In this document: piece after piece, positions 9,521-54,291 of the stretch | Layout of the letters: every line of letters starts with the position of its first letter | How positions within the stretch are numbered: position 1 is the stretch's first letter | DNA from: Kiritimatiellia bacterium | Lineage (GTDB): Bacteria > Verrucomicrobiota > Kiritimatiellia > RFP12 > UBA1067 | Reading direction: 5' to 3' | DNA length: 54,505 bases | NCBI GenBank assembly: GCA_024405265.1 | Contig: JAKSOZ010000009.1 | Location: forward strand, 1 to 54,505 | Position numbers and translations under genes: made by a program | The notes under the pieces: generated by a model | Databases searched by the model: none | What the model was told of the DNA's origin: nothing | Seen by the model: the letters and a program-made list of their open reading frames with translations, nothing else

Positions 9521-12500
9521 ATGAATCCTTTCAATACTCTCGACACCTTCGGCGGTAGCTATAACGCGTCGGCTCATTATGACGCGATCAAGGTGATGCT
9601 CGCTTCGCCTGAGACCATTCGCAGTTGGTCTCATGGTGAAGTCAAGAATCCCGAGACGATCAACTATCGTACGTATCGCCCTGAAAAGGACGGCCTTTTC
9701 TGCGAAAAGATCTTCGGACCTACCAAGGACTGGGAGTGCGCTTGCGGTAAGTACAAGCGAATCAAGAACAAGGGTATGATTTGCGATCGCTGCGGCGTCG
9801 AAGTCACCCTCGCCTCGGTCCGCCGTCAGCGCATGGGCCATATCGAACTCGCGGTTCCCGTGAGCCACATCTGGTTCTTCAAGTGTTCGCCTTCGCGTAT
9901 GGGCCTCTTGCTCGATAAGACTTCGAGCGAACTCGAGCGCGTTCTTTACTATCAGGATTGGATGGTTACCGAACCCGGAGATACGCCCCTTAAAGAAGGT
10001 CAGATCCTCTCCGACCAGGAATACGCCGACGCGCAGGAAAAGTACGAAGACGCTTTCAAGGCCGAAATGGGCGCGGAAGCCGTTCGTAAGCTCTTGAGAC
10101 GTCTTGACCTCGATAAGCTCATGGCCGAACTCGAGGAAGAGATGGAGAATACCCGCTCGAAGCAGACGCGCAAGAAAATCGCCAAGCGCATGAAAGTCGT
10201 CGAAGGCTTCCGCGCTTCGAAGAGCCTTCCCGAGTGGATGGTCCTCGATGTTCTTCCCGTTATTCCGCCGGAACTTCGTCCTCTCGTCCCGCTCGAAGGC
10301 GGACGCTTCGCGACGAGCGATCTTAACGATCTCTACCGCCGCGTCATCAATCGTAACAACCGTCTTCGCAACCTCCTCGCGCTCAAGACCCCTGACGTCA
10401 TTATCCGCAACGAAAAGCGCATGCTTCAGGAAGCGGTTGATGCCGTCTTCGACAACGGTCGACATGGTCGCGCCGTCACCGGTCCCGGCAACCGCGCGCT
10501 CAAGTCGCTGTCCGAAATTCTCAAGGGTAAGACGGGCCGCTTCCGTCAGAACCTTCTCGGTAAGCGCGTCGACTACTCGGGCCGTTCGGTTATCGTCGTC
10601 GGTCCTGAACTTAAGTTCCCGCAGTGCGGTATTCCTAAGGAGATGGCGCTTCGCTTGTTCGAGCCGTTCATTATCCGCCGCTTGAAAGAGCTCGGCATTT
10701 GCCATACGGTCCGTACCGCCCGCAAGATGATCGAACGCCGCGACGAGCAGGTCTGGGATATCCTCGAAGAAGTGACGAAGGACAAAACGGTCTTCCTTAA
10801 CCGCGCGCCTACCTTGCACCGTCTCTCGATTCAGGCTTTCGAACCCGTCCTCGTCGAAGGTAAGGCTATCCGCCTCCACCCGATGGTTTGTACGCCGTTC
10901 AACGCCGACTTCGACGGTGACCAGATGGCTGTCCACGTACCGCTCTCGATCGAAGCTCAGATGGAATCGAAGCTCATGATGCTCGCTTCGACCTCGATCT
11001 TCTCGCCTGCGTCGGGCAAGTCCGTAATGACTCCTACGCAGGATGTCTGCTTGGGCCTCTACTTCCTTACGGTTCCCTCGCAACAGGATAAGCTCGCCGG
11101 TAAGATCGCGGGCAAGACTCCTGCCGGGGAAGAACATTTGCCCTTGTTCAATGATATCGGAGAAGTCGAATTCGGCATTGCCGAAGGCTGCATTTCGTAT
11201 CATAGCCGCATCCGTTTCCGTAACCCCGACTACGGTACTTCGGGTCGTCCTCACGGCGACACGACTCACCGCACGATCGAGACGACCGCCGGTCGCGTTA
11301 TCTTCAATAACGTTTGGCCGAAGGAAATGGGCTTCTGGAACGACAAGTGCTCGAAGTCGACGATCGGCAACTTGATTCTCGACTGCCACAAGGTCGCGGG
11401 TCATGACATCACGGTCGATGCGATCGACAAGCTCAAGTCGCTCGGCTACCAGTTCGCAACCGTCTCCGGCGCTTCGATGGGTCTTAAGGATATGATCCGC
11501 CCGGCCGATAAGGACGCGGAGATCGCGAAGGCTCGCGCCGAGGCCGACAAGGTTCAGGCTCAGTTCCAGCAGGGTATCATCACCGATGGTGAACGCCATA
11601 ACAAGATCGTCGGCATTTGGTCGGCGACGACTGAAAAGGTCGGTGACGAACTCTACAAGACGATCGATAAGAACATCAGCCCTGAGAACAAGAACCCGAC
11701 CGAACTCAACCCGGTTTATATGTTCGTCGACTCGAAGGCTCGTGGTTCGAAGCTCCAGATTCGTCAGCTCGCCGGTATGCGCGGTCTTATGGCGAATCCT
11801 TCGGGTGATATTATCGAACGCCCGATTACCGCTTCGTTCCGTGAAGGTCTCTCGGTTCTCGAATACTTCATTTCTTCTCACGGCGCTCGTAAGGGTCTCG
11901 CCGATACCGCGCTTAAGACCGCGGACGCCGGCTACCTTACCCGTAAGCTCGTCGACGTTTCGCAGGACGTTATCATCACTCAGGAAGACTGCAACACCGT
12001 CAACGGTCTCGAAGTCGAAGCCATCGTCGAAGGTGACGAAGTCAAGGTTACCTTGGGCGAGCGCGTCATCGGTCGTACCGCGCTTTATGACGTTCGCAAT
12101 CCCAAGACCGGCGAGACGATCGTTCGCTCGAACGACATCATCGACGAAGAAATGGCTGAAGCGATAAACAAGGCCGGAGTCGATTCGATTTGGATTCGCT
12201 CGGGTCTTACTTGCGACGCGGAACACGGTATGTGCGCCAAGTGCTACGGGCGCGACCTCTCGACCGGTAAGCAGGTCGAAATCGGCACGGCGGTCGGTAT
12301 CATCGCCGCTCAGTCGATCGGCGAACCCGGTACTCAGCTCACGATGCGTACGTTCCACATCGGTGGTACCGCTTCCGCTTCGGCGCAGGCGACCGATATC
12401 GTCCTCAAGAACGACGGTGTTGCCAAGTTCATCGACGTTCGTAAGGTCCGCAACGACGAAGGCAAGGAAGTCGTCTTGAATAAGAACGGTAGCCTCGAGA

Positions 12501-47477: not shown

Positions 47478-47489
47478 GAGGTGTCGAAA

Positions 47490-48266
47490 ATGTTCGGTTG
47501 GTTGTTCGGAAAAAAGAAACGATTAGGAGCGCTCGATTACGCCGTTAAAAGCGAAGTCGGCCTCGTCAGAAGCAATAACGAAGACAATTACTTCGTTGAT
47601 GAATCGCGCACGCTTTTCTGTGTCGCTGACGGCATGGGAGGCGGAGCGGAAGGCGAAGTCGCGAGCGCGATTGTAGTCGAGGAAGTCGCGAAGGTCGTCC
47701 CCGAGAAGCCTTATCGCAGTCGTCTCGAACATTTCGAGGCGGCGCTAGAAACAGCCAATCAGCGGATTCGTAAAATCGCCGCGGACAAGGGCTATCGCCA
47801 GATGGGTTCGACGGCGGTCGGTATTATCATCAGTGAAGATCGTCCTTCGCGCGCGGCGATCTGTCATGTCGGAGATTCTCGCGCTTATCGTCTTCGCGAT
47901 TCCAAGATTGAACCGCTTACTCGAGATCACACGGTCGGAGGAGAGCTAAGCTCGATGGCGACCGGCGCAAAAGCTTCTCAGCTTAAAGATCGTGCGAATC
48001 CGCTCGCGCACATGCTCACGCGCGCGTTAGGCGCTACCGACAATTCGCTCGGCGACTGGAAGCTTATCGATCTTAAGCGAGGTGATAAGCTTATCATTTG
48101 CTCCGACGGTGTTCATGACGTCATTACCGACGATCATCTTCGCAAGATCATGAAGGCTGATGACGAGCCTGCGAAAATCGCCGCGCGACTTGAGAAAGCC
48201 ATCTTGAAAGCGGGTGCGCCCGATAACTACACTTATATCATCATCAATGTCGGAGAAGTGAAATGA
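47490..48266 (+). CDS. PP2C-family Ser/Thr protein phosphatase
   Basis: 258 residues. The ATG at 47490 is preferred to the in-frame GTG at 47481 because AGAGG (47476-47480) is 9 nt from it. Metal-binding motifs are present: VRSNNEDNYF, CVADGMGGGAEG, MGSTAVGI, CHVGDSRAYRL, LIICSDGVHDV and the final APDNYTYIII. PP2C enzymes remove phosphate from Ser/Thr residues in an Mg/Mn-dependent way. It lies between two kinase genes and overlaps the second by 4 nt (ATGA), so it very likely reverses their phosphorylation. Confidence 0.94.
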   Translation: MFGWLFGKKKRLGALDYAVKSEVGLVRSNNEDNYFVDESRTLFCVADGMGGGAEGEVASAIVVEEVAKVVPEKPYRSRLEHFEAALETANQRIRKIAADKGYRQMGSTAVGIIISEDRPSRAAICHVGDSRAYRLRDSKIEPLTRDHTVGGELSSMATGAKASQLKDRANPLAHMLTRALGATDNSLGDWKLIDLKRGDKLIICSDGVHDVITDDHLRKIMKADDEPAKIAARLEKAILKAGAPDNYTYIIINVGEVK

Positions 48267-49375
48267 GCGATAATAAGCCGGACGTGTTTCAAAGCGGGGA
48301 TCACTTCCACGGTTACGTGATCGAGCGCCTTCTCGGCAAGGGCGGAATGGGCGCGGTTTACCTCGCGCGTCATGAGATGCTTGATACGCTTTACGCGATT
48401 AAGGTGCTCTATCCCGAGGTTGCGACGTCGAACGCGAGCTATATCAAGCGTTTCTTGCGCGAAGCCAAGATCGCCACTCGCGTTCGCCACCCGAATATGG
48501 TTGCGGTTCATGACTGCGGATACGACTCGGAGCGGAACGTCTATTATCTCGTTATGGATTATGTCGTCAGTGGGGACCTTCGACAGGCGCTCGGTTTCAG
48601 CGGGCGCTTTACGGCCGAGAAGGCTGCTGACGTAATCGCGCAGGTCGCCTCCGCGCTTGATGCGATGCAGAAACTTGGCGTCGTTCATCGCGATATCAAG
48701 CCGGAGAATATCCTTCTTCAGTCCGATGGCAGCGTGAAGATCGTCGACCTCGGAATCGCGAAGGCGACGAGTCTCGGCGATGCGACGATGACGACCACGA
48801 ATATGGTTTTCGGCACTCCCGCGTATGTCGCGCCCGAGCAAGCGAAGAATGCCGCGGACGTCGACGTGAGAGCTGATATTTACTCGCTTGGCATCGTCTT
48901 TTTCGAACTCGTTGCCGGACGCACGCCTTATGAAGGCTCGAACCCTGCGGCGATTATCGCGTCTTCATTAAGCTCCGATCCGATTCCCGACGTCAGAGAT
49001 TTCAATCCCGAGGTTCCTCCGATGGTCGCGACGCTGATTCGACGGATGTGCGTTAAAGATCGTAATCGTCGACTCGCTTCTCATTCCGCCGTTCTCGCGG
49101 AACTCGCGAAACTCGGCTACTCGCTGAATCACGTTCATCTGGACGAGAAAATCGAGTATACTCCGACCGCTCAAAGCGAGAGCGCGACTGCGGGTATCGA
49201 TCTCGAGCATTTGCCGGAAAAGGCCAACCACACGCTTTCTTTCGATACCGATGACGAAGAGGTAAAGGCGTTCGTGAATAAGCTTAAAGCCAAGCGCCGT
49301 AGGAAAAACGTGATATTTATTGCGACTATAGCGATTCTTGCCGTCCTTACGCTGGCGCTAATACTGACAATATGA
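48263..49375 (+). CDS. membrane-anchored Ser/Thr protein kinase
   Basis: 370 residues. Complete Hanks-type kinase domain: GKGGMGA loop, K47, H142-R-D144-IKPEN, D162LG, APEQAKN and YSLGIVFFELVAG. A ~60-residue linker follows, and a single C-terminal membrane helix at about 346-369 (VIFIATIAILAVLTLALILT) with no ectodomain. So it is tail-anchored with the kinase inside the cell, unlike the upstream receptor-like kinase. Its stop (49373-49375) lies within the next promoter. Together with the phosphatase and first kinase it forms a closed phosphorylation module. Confidence 0.93.
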   Translation: MSDNKPDVFQSGDHFHGYVIERLLGKGGMGAVYLARHEMLDTLYAIKVLYPEVATSNASYIKRFLREAKIATRVRHPNMVAVHDCGYDSERNVYYLVMDYVVSGDLRQALGFSGRFTAEKAADVIAQVASALDAMQKLGVVHRDIKPENILLQSDGSVKIVDLGIAKATSLGDATMTTTNMVFGTPAYVAPEQAKNAADVDVRADIYSLGIVFFELVAGRTPYEGSNPAAIIASSLSSDPIPDVRDFNPEVPPMVATLIRRMCVKDRNRRLASHSAVLAELAKLGYSLNHVHLDEKIEYTPTAQSESATAGIDLEHLPEKANHTLSFDTDDEEVKAFVNKLKAKRRRKNVIFIATIAILAVLTLALILTI

Positions 49376-49381
49376 TATAAT
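49373..49381 (+). promoter_or_regulatory. extended -10 promoter of the S1-domain gene, near-leaderless
   Basis: TGATATAAT (49373-49381) starts at the stop codon of the preceding kinase. The S1 gene ATG is at 49391, 9 nt after the -10, so the 5' leader would be about 0-3 nt. No clear -35. Confidence 0.5.
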
Positions 49382-49390
49382 TCCCTAAGT

Positions 49391-50131
49391 ATGAATAACG
49401 AAAAATTCGATTTTGGTGCGCTCGTTGATGCGCAGTTCAAGAACATGCCTCGTAAGAAAAAAGTCGAGGCTCCTGTGGTTTCTTCGAATGACAACGTGAC
49501 GATCAAGGCCGCTTGGGATAATGGAGAGGCCGTTTCCGGTCTTGTCGAGAAGGAGATCAAAGGCGGCTTTGAAGTCACTGTCGCCGGTCAGCGTTGCTTC
49601 TGCCCGTTCAGTCAAATCGATAAGTTCAAGAAGGAATCGGCCGAATATATTGGAAGAAAGTTCGACTTCCTCGTGAGCGAATATTCGACGGATGATCGTG
49701 GGCTTAACGTTATCGTTTCGCGTCGTGCGCTTATGGAAGTCGAAGAAGCGGCGCTTAAGGAAGCGCTTTTACAAGAGCTTAACGAAGGCGAAACTTTGAA
49801 CGGAACGGTGACGCGCGTCATGGACTTCGGCGCGTTCGTCGATTTGGGTGGAATCGAAGGTCTTATTCCCGCCCGTGAAGTCGCTTGGGAACGAGTGAAC
49901 GATATCTCGAAAGTTCTCAAGTCGGGAGACGGTGTTACCGTCAAGATCTTGAAGATTGACCGCGAAGAAGGTAAGCTTACGCTCTCGCGCAAGGAATGTC
50001 TCTCGCGCGTCTTCAAGAAGGATCCCGCTGAAGAAGCCGCCGAGAAGTCCGCCGCGGAAGTTGCCGCGTGGATGGAAAACTCGAAGAAAAAGAACGCGTC
50101 CTTCGGCACCGGCTTCTTCGACTCCCTCTAA
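49391..50131 (+). CDS. S1-domain RNA-binding protein (ribosomal S1-like)
   Basis: 246 residues. Two S1/OB domains: the first around residues 35-110 (SGLVEKEIKGGFEVTVAGQR with IGRKFDFLV), the second around 128-205 (NGTVTRVMDFGAFVDLGGIE, AREVAWERV, KILKIDREEGKLTLSRK). Flanking parts are charged and probably flexible; the C-terminus is Lys/Glu-rich. It is too short for full ribosomal protein S1 (six repeats) and may assist mRNA binding or translation. Its stop (TAA 50129-50131) is the start of a heptamer array. The putative leaderless start is notable for a translation-related gene. Confidence 0.85.
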   Translation: MNNEKFDFGALVDAQFKNMPRKKKVEAPVVSSNDNVTIKAAWDNGEAVSGLVEKEIKGGFEVTVAGQRCFCPFSQIDKFKKESAEYIGRKFDFLVSEYSTDDRGLNVIVSRRALMEVEEAALKEALLQELNEGETLNGTVTRVMDFGAFVDLGGIEGLIPAREVAWERVNDISKVLKSGDGVTVKILKIDREEGKLTLSRKECLSRVFKKDPAEEAAEKSAAEVAAWMENSKKKNASFGTGFFDSL

Positions 50132-50165
50132 CCACTACCCACTATCCACTAACCACTACCCACTT
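50124..50165 (+). repeat. heptamer array (consensus NCCACTA) between the S1 gene and nadD
   Basis: Six 7-nt units in register: CCCTCTA, ACCACTA, CCCACTA, TCCACTA, ACCACTA, CCCACTT. They begin in the last codons of the S1 gene, contain its stop and end 6 nt before the nadD ATG, so they fill the intergenic space. Confidence 0.8.
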
Positions 50166-50171
50166 CTTCTC

Positions 50172-50804
50172 ATGCGTATCGGTATCTTCGGCGGCTCTTT
50201 CAATCCTATCCATTTAGGCCACGTTCGCGTCGCCAAGAATGCGATTGATTCGCTTGCGCTCGATAAGCTTCTCGTTATCCCGGCGAATGTCTCGCCGTTC
50301 AAGACCGAGTCGAAAGCGGCTGAGTTCTACGATCGCCTCGAAATGGCGAAGGCGATCTTCGCGCCTCTCGAAAAAGCGGAGGTCGATGATCGCGAGCTTA
50401 AGCGCGGCGGAATTTCTTATACGATCGATACGGTGAAGGAAATCGCGGCGGAAAATCCCGGTGCCGAGCTTTATCTTATTATCGGAGAGGATTCCGAGGA
50501 GGGACTACCGCGTTGGAAGGACTACGAGGAGCTTATGAAGCTCGTGAAGGTGAATGTCCATCCTCGCACCCCCGAGTCTTCGACAGCGATCAGGAAGCTA
50601 TTCGAGGACGCGAAGGTAGGTATGTCGACGGACTCGAAGATCGTCGCGGCGGTTAAGGCGGGCCTTATTCGAAAGAATGGATATTGTCCGTGCCGGCTCC
50701 CTAAGAATCCCGAGTTTTTCTGCCCTTGCGATGAGTTCAAATCTCAGATGGCCGCTCCCTCTTATCATGGTCTTTGTCATTGTCGTTATTATTTGAAGCC
50801 CTAA
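50172..50804 (+). CDS. nadD: NadD-like nicotinate-nucleotide adenylyltransferase fused to a ferredoxin-thioredoxin-reductase-like tail
   Basis: 210 residues. The N-terminal ~135 are NadD-like: MRIGIFGGSFNPIHLGH (HxGH nucleotidyltransferase motif), VIPANVSPFK, ISYTIDTVKEI, LIIGEDS and LPRWKDYEELMKLVKVNVHPR. Then the protein departs from NadD. STAIRKL may be a displaced SSTxIR motif, but the usual C-terminal region is missing. Instead a ~65-residue segment, GMSTDSKIVAAVKAGLIRKNG, leads to C172-P-C174-R, C184-P-C186 and C202-H-C204, the CPC/CPC/CHC pattern of the ferredoxin-thioredoxin reductase catalytic subunit (4Fe-4S plus redox disulfide). Start chosen at the ATG where NadD similarity begins. 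No ferredoxin or thioredoxin gene lies nearby. The fusion reading frame is continuous; its meaning is inference. Confidence 0.8.
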   Translation: MRIGIFGGSFNPIHLGHVRVAKNAIDSLALDKLLVIPANVSPFKTESKAAEFYDRLEMAKAIFAPLEKAEVDDRELKRGGISYTIDTVKEIAAENPGAELYLIIGEDSEEGLPRWKDYEELMKLVKVNVHPRTPESSTAIRKLFEDAKVGMSTDSKIVAAVKAGLIRKNGYCPCRLPKNPEFFCPCDEFKSQMAAPSYHGLCHCRYYLKP

Positions 50805-53996: not shown

Positions 53997-54038
53997 TCGC
54001 TCGCGATTGCTCGCAATCGAGTTACATATCGGGGTATG

Positions 54039-54126
54039 ATCGAATCAATACCGTGGCCGGCTCGAATCAATATCGGGACCGCTTCAAATCATTACCGTCC
54101 CCCGATCGAATCATTACCGTCCCCCA
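54039..54126. repeat. 22-bp tandem repeats, four copies (TCGAATCATTACCGTCCCC family)
   Basis: The core CGAATCA-type box starts at 54041, 54063, 54085 and 54107: exactly 22 bp apart each time. Copy 3 has CAAATCA. An inverted copy of the same motif follows (CGGTATTGAATTGAAGCGG, 54136-54154). The 22-bp period puts all boxes on one face of the helix (two turns). Confidence 0.85.
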
Positions 54127-54127
54127 A

Positions 54128-54291
54128 GCGGCTCTCGGTATTGAATTGAAGCGGCTTCAGTATTCAAAGAAAGCGGCTACTCGCTCCAAAGTAAGCGGCT
54201 ACTTGCTCTAAAGTAAGCGGCTACTTTGGTTGTTTATAGCGGCTACTTTTATCAAAGTAAGCGGCTACTCGATACGAAGTTGCCGCTTACA
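54128..54291. repeat. 22-bp repeats with GCGGCTACT boxes
   Basis: GCGGCTACT starts at 54173, 54195, 54217, 54239 and 54261, each 22 bp apart. Weaker GCGGCT boxes at 54128 and 54151 extend the register. The last copy is inverted (AGTTGCCGCTTAC at 54279-54291). The unit is roughly AAAGTAAGCGGCTACT with a variable remainder. Multiple phased binding sites are typical of the end of an IS21-type element or of an iteron-like origin; neither is proven here. Confidence 0.8.

Follow-up and report, generated by a model that had tools for sequence, protein, structure and literature searches.

A NadD protein carrying a C-terminal domain of the ferredoxin:thioredoxin reductase type in a genus of uncultured Kiritimatiellia

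A gene on the forward strand of the 54,505-nucleotide stretch of DNA analysed here (the window), at positions 50172 to 50804, encodes a protein of 210 amino acids in which nicotinate-nucleotide adenylyltransferase (NadD) continues in frame into a tail homologous to the catalytic chain of ferredoxin:thioredoxin reductase (FTR). We find this to be a conserved and real domain fusion, with known parts in a new and apparently undescribed architecture, and we think it probable from the sequence comparisons that the protein is bifunctional, serving both as NadD and as the thioredoxin reductase of the cell, which would probably be fed by ferredoxin. The sequence-only reading of the window had known of no described NadD-FTR fusion, and our literature search, which covered mostly open-access papers, likewise returned no such description and no paper naming both FTR and nicotinate-nucleotide adenylyltransferase.

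The NadD domain and its FTR-type tail

The reading frame runs uninterrupted from an ATG through 210 codons to a TAA stop, and the single continuous passage from NadD into the tail that had been read from the letters is correct, as are the positions given for six cysteines (172, 174, 184, 186, 202 and 204), which make up the architecture CPC-x9-CPC-x15-CHC on the C-terminal side of NadD in a single chain. The gene encodes the one NadD match in the window genome, an incomplete draft assembly of 1.7 Mb that is 77% complete.

The NadD (nucleotidyltransferase) domain occupies residues 1–141 (50172–50594, forward strand, as for all features of the gene). The Pfam model CTP_transf_like (PF01467) covers residues 5–141 with an E value of 2e-20, and the NCBIfam model for NadD, TIGR00482, scores 136.3 bits against a cut-off of 112.45. 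Both the nucleotide-binding motif GGSFNPIHLGH (residues 7–17; 50190–50222) and the SSTxIR motif (residues 136–141; 50577–50594) are conserved, with G7, G8, F10, P12, H14, G16 and H17 of the former and S136, S137 and R141 of the latter invariant among 28 relatives. An AlphaFold2 model is strong for this domain up to about residue 130, where pLDDT is mostly at least 90, and its best match in the PDB is 1kaq, the NadD of B. subtilis. The N-terminal domain is most likely the NadD of the cell, to judge by sequence, and would make deamido-NAD from nicotinate mononucleotide and ATP.

In fold, in the two motifs and in its score above the TIGR00482 cut-off the window protein resembles other NadDs such as 1kaq, but it differs from them in a shorter hairpin before SSTxIR, in an FTR helix that replaces the final helix and in an Fe-S-type domain added at the C-terminus. 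The C-terminal region of NadD had been described as missing, which holds for the final helix but not for the SSTxIR motif, present as S136 to R141. The hairpin (~17 residues), which is short by comparison with B. subtilis NadD, is short also in the unfused NadDs of the genus, so that its shortening is unrelated to the fusion. The fused proteins take two forms, one in which the last NadD helix is kept before the tail (11 of 37, for example LVPEAVALFIRHAV) and one in which it is absent (26 of 37, the window protein included). In the window protein, the helix that comes first in the FTR domain (residues 156–168; 50637–50675) lies at the usual place of the last NadD helix in both the alignment and the model, the latter being of low confidence here (pLDDT ~53).

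The FTR catalytic-type domain itself (PF02943) extends over residues 149–210 (50616–50801) and contains CPC at residues 172–174 (50685–50693), CPC at 184–186 (50721–50729) and CHC at 202–204 (50775–50783). None of the six cysteines varies among the 37 fusions, and the histidine of CHC is invariant too in the aligned set. Scored directly, residues 147–209 of the window protein reach 18.5 bits with FeThRed_B (PF02943), under the gathering score of 22, and since this score alone is insufficient the case for homology rests on intermediates. Among three free-standing homologues scored with the same model, two reach 40 and 24 bits, both from the family and order of the window genome, and the third reaches 17.9. 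Small proteins, about 65 residues long, that are encoded in sister genera and in other families of the order align along the whole tail, with identities of 42–48% for the nearer and 37% for the most distant, and the Vescimonas fastidiosa protein WP_212821942.1, annotated as a "ferredoxin-thioredoxin reductase catalytic domain-containing protein", shows 50% identity with it (E 4e-15). A profile made of the tail and its homologues found a single chain in the PDB, FTR subunit B (7pwe), at an E value of 0.003. Through these intermediates, homology of the tail to the FTR catalytic chain is established at the level of sequence; both domains proposed by the sequence-only reading were recovered, CTP_transf_like directly and FeThRed_B under the cut-off for the protein itself and over it via close homologues, and a chance pattern of cysteines is ruled out by the relationship to free-standing FTR-like proteins.

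With the FTR catalytic chain and the short proteins of anaerobes the tail shares the order CPC, CPC, CHC and some 60 aligned residues; it differs in its spacings of x9 and x15 and in being fused to NadD. In spinach FTR the spacings are x16 and x8, and the earlier remark that the order but not the spacing is that of the plant enzyme agrees with the sequence. The AlphaFold2 model of the tail is poor (pLDDT 38–53) because the underlying alignment held only two tail-bearing rows.

Recurrence, conservation and origin of the fusion

The tail is present in 37 of the 61 genomes of the genus and always stands in frame on the NadD found there, the genus members without a tail retaining an unfused NadD, while sister genera encode its homologue separately, as a protein of about 65 residues. 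Since the draft assembly behind the window is incomplete, a false join or frame error might be suspected, but the same in-frame fusion with conserved domains recurs in 37 separately assembled genomes; this refutes such an artefact, to which we assign a vanishingly small probability, and bears out the fusion that had been claimed. Across 114 pairs unsaturated at synonymous sites, median dN/dS is 0.19 for the tail and 0.26 for the NadD part, and the tail is thus under somewhat stronger constraint than the domain to which it is joined. The fusion persists across the deep divergences of the genus, where protein identity falls to about 56%. An uncultured Lentisphaerae bacterium, RUG712 (L031), is a record of the same genus, and its protein is identical to that of L018.

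A tree of the tails places all fusion tails on one side of a branch from the free-standing homologues with support of 100/96, a result in favour of a single fusion. In the tree of the NadD part the fused genes do not all group together, but a tree in which they do was not rejected (AU p = 0.19). These sequences are read most simply as a single fusion with later losses, and the number of fusion events is probably one, although two separate fusions may have occurred. We infer the number and order of events from sequence as follows: a free-standing FTR-like gene of the kind seen in sister genera would have been joined, probably once, to the 3' end of nadD, and the final NadD helix would have been lost afterwards in the lineage of the window. 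Adjacent nadD and FTR genes in outgroups, a candidate source of the join, were not seen, the two genes lying on separate contigs in the genomes examined from sister genera g27 and g30. No intact FTR gene apart from NadD was found in the genomes of the genus; G113 carries, besides its fusion, a partial second copy of the tail with six cysteines (L140, positions 12052–12261 of G113:C5), some 8.5 kb from the fusion gene.

Other joins occur in the family. In g30 an FTR-like domain is in frame with TsaC/Sua5, threonylcarbamoyl-AMP synthase (L156, complement of 2–748 of G144:C59), which by its sequence is an independent FTR fusion, and in four genomes of the same genus NadD is continued without a frame break by a HAD-like hydrolase part (L172, L173, L209 and L210 in G145, G146, G142 and G143, respectively). 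These varied joins suggest that the ends of nadD and of FTR-type genes are easily joined. Both the g30 NadD-HAD proteins and the longer NadD described by PRK07152 are like the window protein in having a NadD with an additional C-terminal domain and unlike it in that the added domain is not FTR; the PRK07152 model covers just the NadD part of the window protein.

The genes flanking the fusion vary between the genus members examined. Upstream in the window (47481–50131) lie genes for a PP2C-type phosphatase, a Ser/Thr protein kinase that has a hydrophobic stretch towards its C-terminus and an S1-domain RNA-binding protein, and the gap directly before the fusion gene (50124–50164) is filled by a 7-base unit, CCACTAN, repeated six times head to tail, where chance would produce no such array; the repeat was not seen upstream of the genes of eight relatives. 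Several tandem arrays of a 22-base repeat lie near the end of the window (54038–54280). A free-standing FTR-like gene at a phage-like locus elsewhere (L157, 5535–9310 of G056:C89) stands by genes for a putative NrdG-type activase, NrdD anaerobic ribonucleotide reductase and a glutaredoxin-like protein, with a dUTPase-like gene nearby. Two short, unannotated human-gut phage records carry a free-standing FTR homologue that is homologous to the FTR of L157, and pattern matches to the tail in IMG/VR yielded no confirmed viral relative.

Thioredoxin reductases in the genus and the family

Within the family, genomes with an FTR of this type nearly always lack the flavin thioredoxin reductase TrxB, which was called at an E value of 1e-40 or better with TIGR01292. 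Within the genus TrxB is found in 2 of 37 tail-bearing and 17 of 24 tail-less genomes (Fisher p = 8e-8) and, among genomes at least 80% complete, in 1 of 28 with the tail and 9 of 12 without (p = 7e-6); elsewhere in the family, where FTR stands alone as a protein, TrxB occurs in 0 of 11 FTR-bearing genomes and 39 of 43 others (p = 1e-8), and within g27 in 0 of 7 and 8 of 9 (p = 0.001), all of these p-values overstating the evidence because the genomes are related. The 16 genomes of g27 divide into 7 with FTR only, 8 with TrxB only and 1 with neither. The exceptions in the genus are G025 and G122, which have both the tail and TrxB, and 7 genomes that have neither, perhaps through incompleteness of their assemblies; incompleteness cannot account for the absence of TrxB from 35 of 37 tail-bearing genomes, because completeness is no higher among those without a tail. 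The NadD tree offers only four well-supported independent contrasts, nearly all in the expected direction, a number with which significance is unreachable. As a rule for the whole phylum the exclusion fails outside the family: among the genomes sampled across the phylum, TrxB accompanies FTR in every one of the 28 FTR-bearing members of families f42 and f48, and there the short FTR must do something additional or be redundant.

Two kinds of TrxB-type protein occur in the genus members without a tail. The first consists of NADPH enzymes with HRRxxxR, their genes often adjoining a thioredoxin gene; those of the second (L188–L198) are about 40 residues short and are without HRRxxxR. Absence of this motif is a mark of the ferredoxin-dependent flavin enzymes, FFTR (PMC10880999), which the second kind resembles in sequence. 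Close relatives thus appear, from their gene content, to swap ways of reducing thioredoxin, the tail among them. The role proposed for the tail is that of the flavin thioredoxin reductases (TrxB/NTR and FFTR), but these are flavoproteins, to which the sequence of the tail is unrelated. A thioredoxin-family match is present throughout the genomes of the genus, and the window genome encodes a thioredoxin with WCGPC, at 84139–84423 of G000:C12, as well as pyruvate:ferredoxin oxidoreductase, an enzyme that yields reduced ferredoxin.

The role of the tail and of its attachment to NadD

Because of the near-exclusion with TrxB inside the family, we favour ordinary thioredoxin reduction as the job of the tail. 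Its 60 or so residues would form a minimal FTR catalytic domain doing what TrxB does in related genomes. By homology with FTR, a [4Fe-4S] cluster would be held by C172, C184, C186 and C202, and C174/C204 would be the redox disulfide, an assignment that follows the spinach enzyme; reduced ferredoxin would pass single electrons via the cluster to C174/C204, which would then reduce the WCGPC disulfide of thioredoxin. Only the catalytic subunit of FTR contacts ferredoxin and thioredoxin, and the variable subunit is reported to occur in oxygenic phototrophs alone (PMC9025218), findings that make a catalytic domain without a partner subunit plausible and indeed expected. Our literature search found no experimental paper on the role of the short FTR-like proteins of anaerobes.

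The sub-threshold Pfam score of the tail, its cysteine spacing unlike that of the plant enzyme and its low-confidence model count against the reductase reading, and would suit a tail without reductase activity in which the six cysteines merely hold a structural metal, whether zinc or a non-catalytic cluster. We consider this very unlikely, since every one of the six cysteines is invariant, the pair that matches the FTR redox pair among them, and so, across the aligned set, is the histidine of CHC, and since a structural metal would leave the absence of TrxB unexplained.

There is also the question of why the probable reductase should be attached to NadD. The sequence-only reading had suggested that the tail could couple NAD synthesis to redox state; the near-exclusion with TrxB points instead to an ordinary thioredoxin reductase, although a redox switch, in which the cluster or disulfide alters NadD activity so that NAD synthesis tracks the state of ferredoxin or thioredoxin, may coexist with that role. 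The long conservation of a fusion to one particular enzyme speaks for such a switch, as does the alignment of the FTR helix at the lost NadD helix in 26 fusions, that of the window included, where the domains may share structure. Yet the genus members without a tail manage with an unfused NadD, which therefore needs no tail; 11 fusions hold NadD's own last helix and a linker; the TrxB pattern is equal for free-standing FTR in sister genera, with no need of a link to NadD; and the joins of NadD to a HAD-like part and of FTR to TsaC/Sua5 show that the pairing is not specific. We regard a switch as unlikely, and hold equally doubtful its fullest form, in which a ferredoxin-driven Fe-S/disulfide unit that is also the thioredoxin reductase of the cell would set NadD activity via the shared helix, and NAD synthesis would answer directly to the ferredoxin and thioredoxin state in cells that have abandoned NAD(P)H-dependent thioredoxin reduction. 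The attachment may also have no coupling value, being a chance join of two housekeeping activities with co-expression at most as its benefit. This absence of coupling is compatible with the bifunctional protein that we favour, and we give it a substantial chance, somewhat short of even. The varying flanks of the fusion and the further NadD or FTR joins in the family would accord with a chance join; its retention down to about 56% protein identity would not, nor would the lack of an intact FTR gene apart from NadD in any genome of the genus, where the partial tail copy of G113 is the only extra one.

On the bifunctional reading, these uncultured bacteria of gut type have an essential enzyme of NAD synthesis joined to a domain that is probably their sole thioredoxin reductase. 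The genus belongs to a bacterial family in which flavin and Fe-S-type thioredoxin-reducing enzymes replace one another between close relatives, and which thereby provides a natural test of what the short FTR-like proteins of anaerobes do. If it is true that the two domains communicate, the fusion would connect the ferredoxin pool physically and directly with NAD synthesis.
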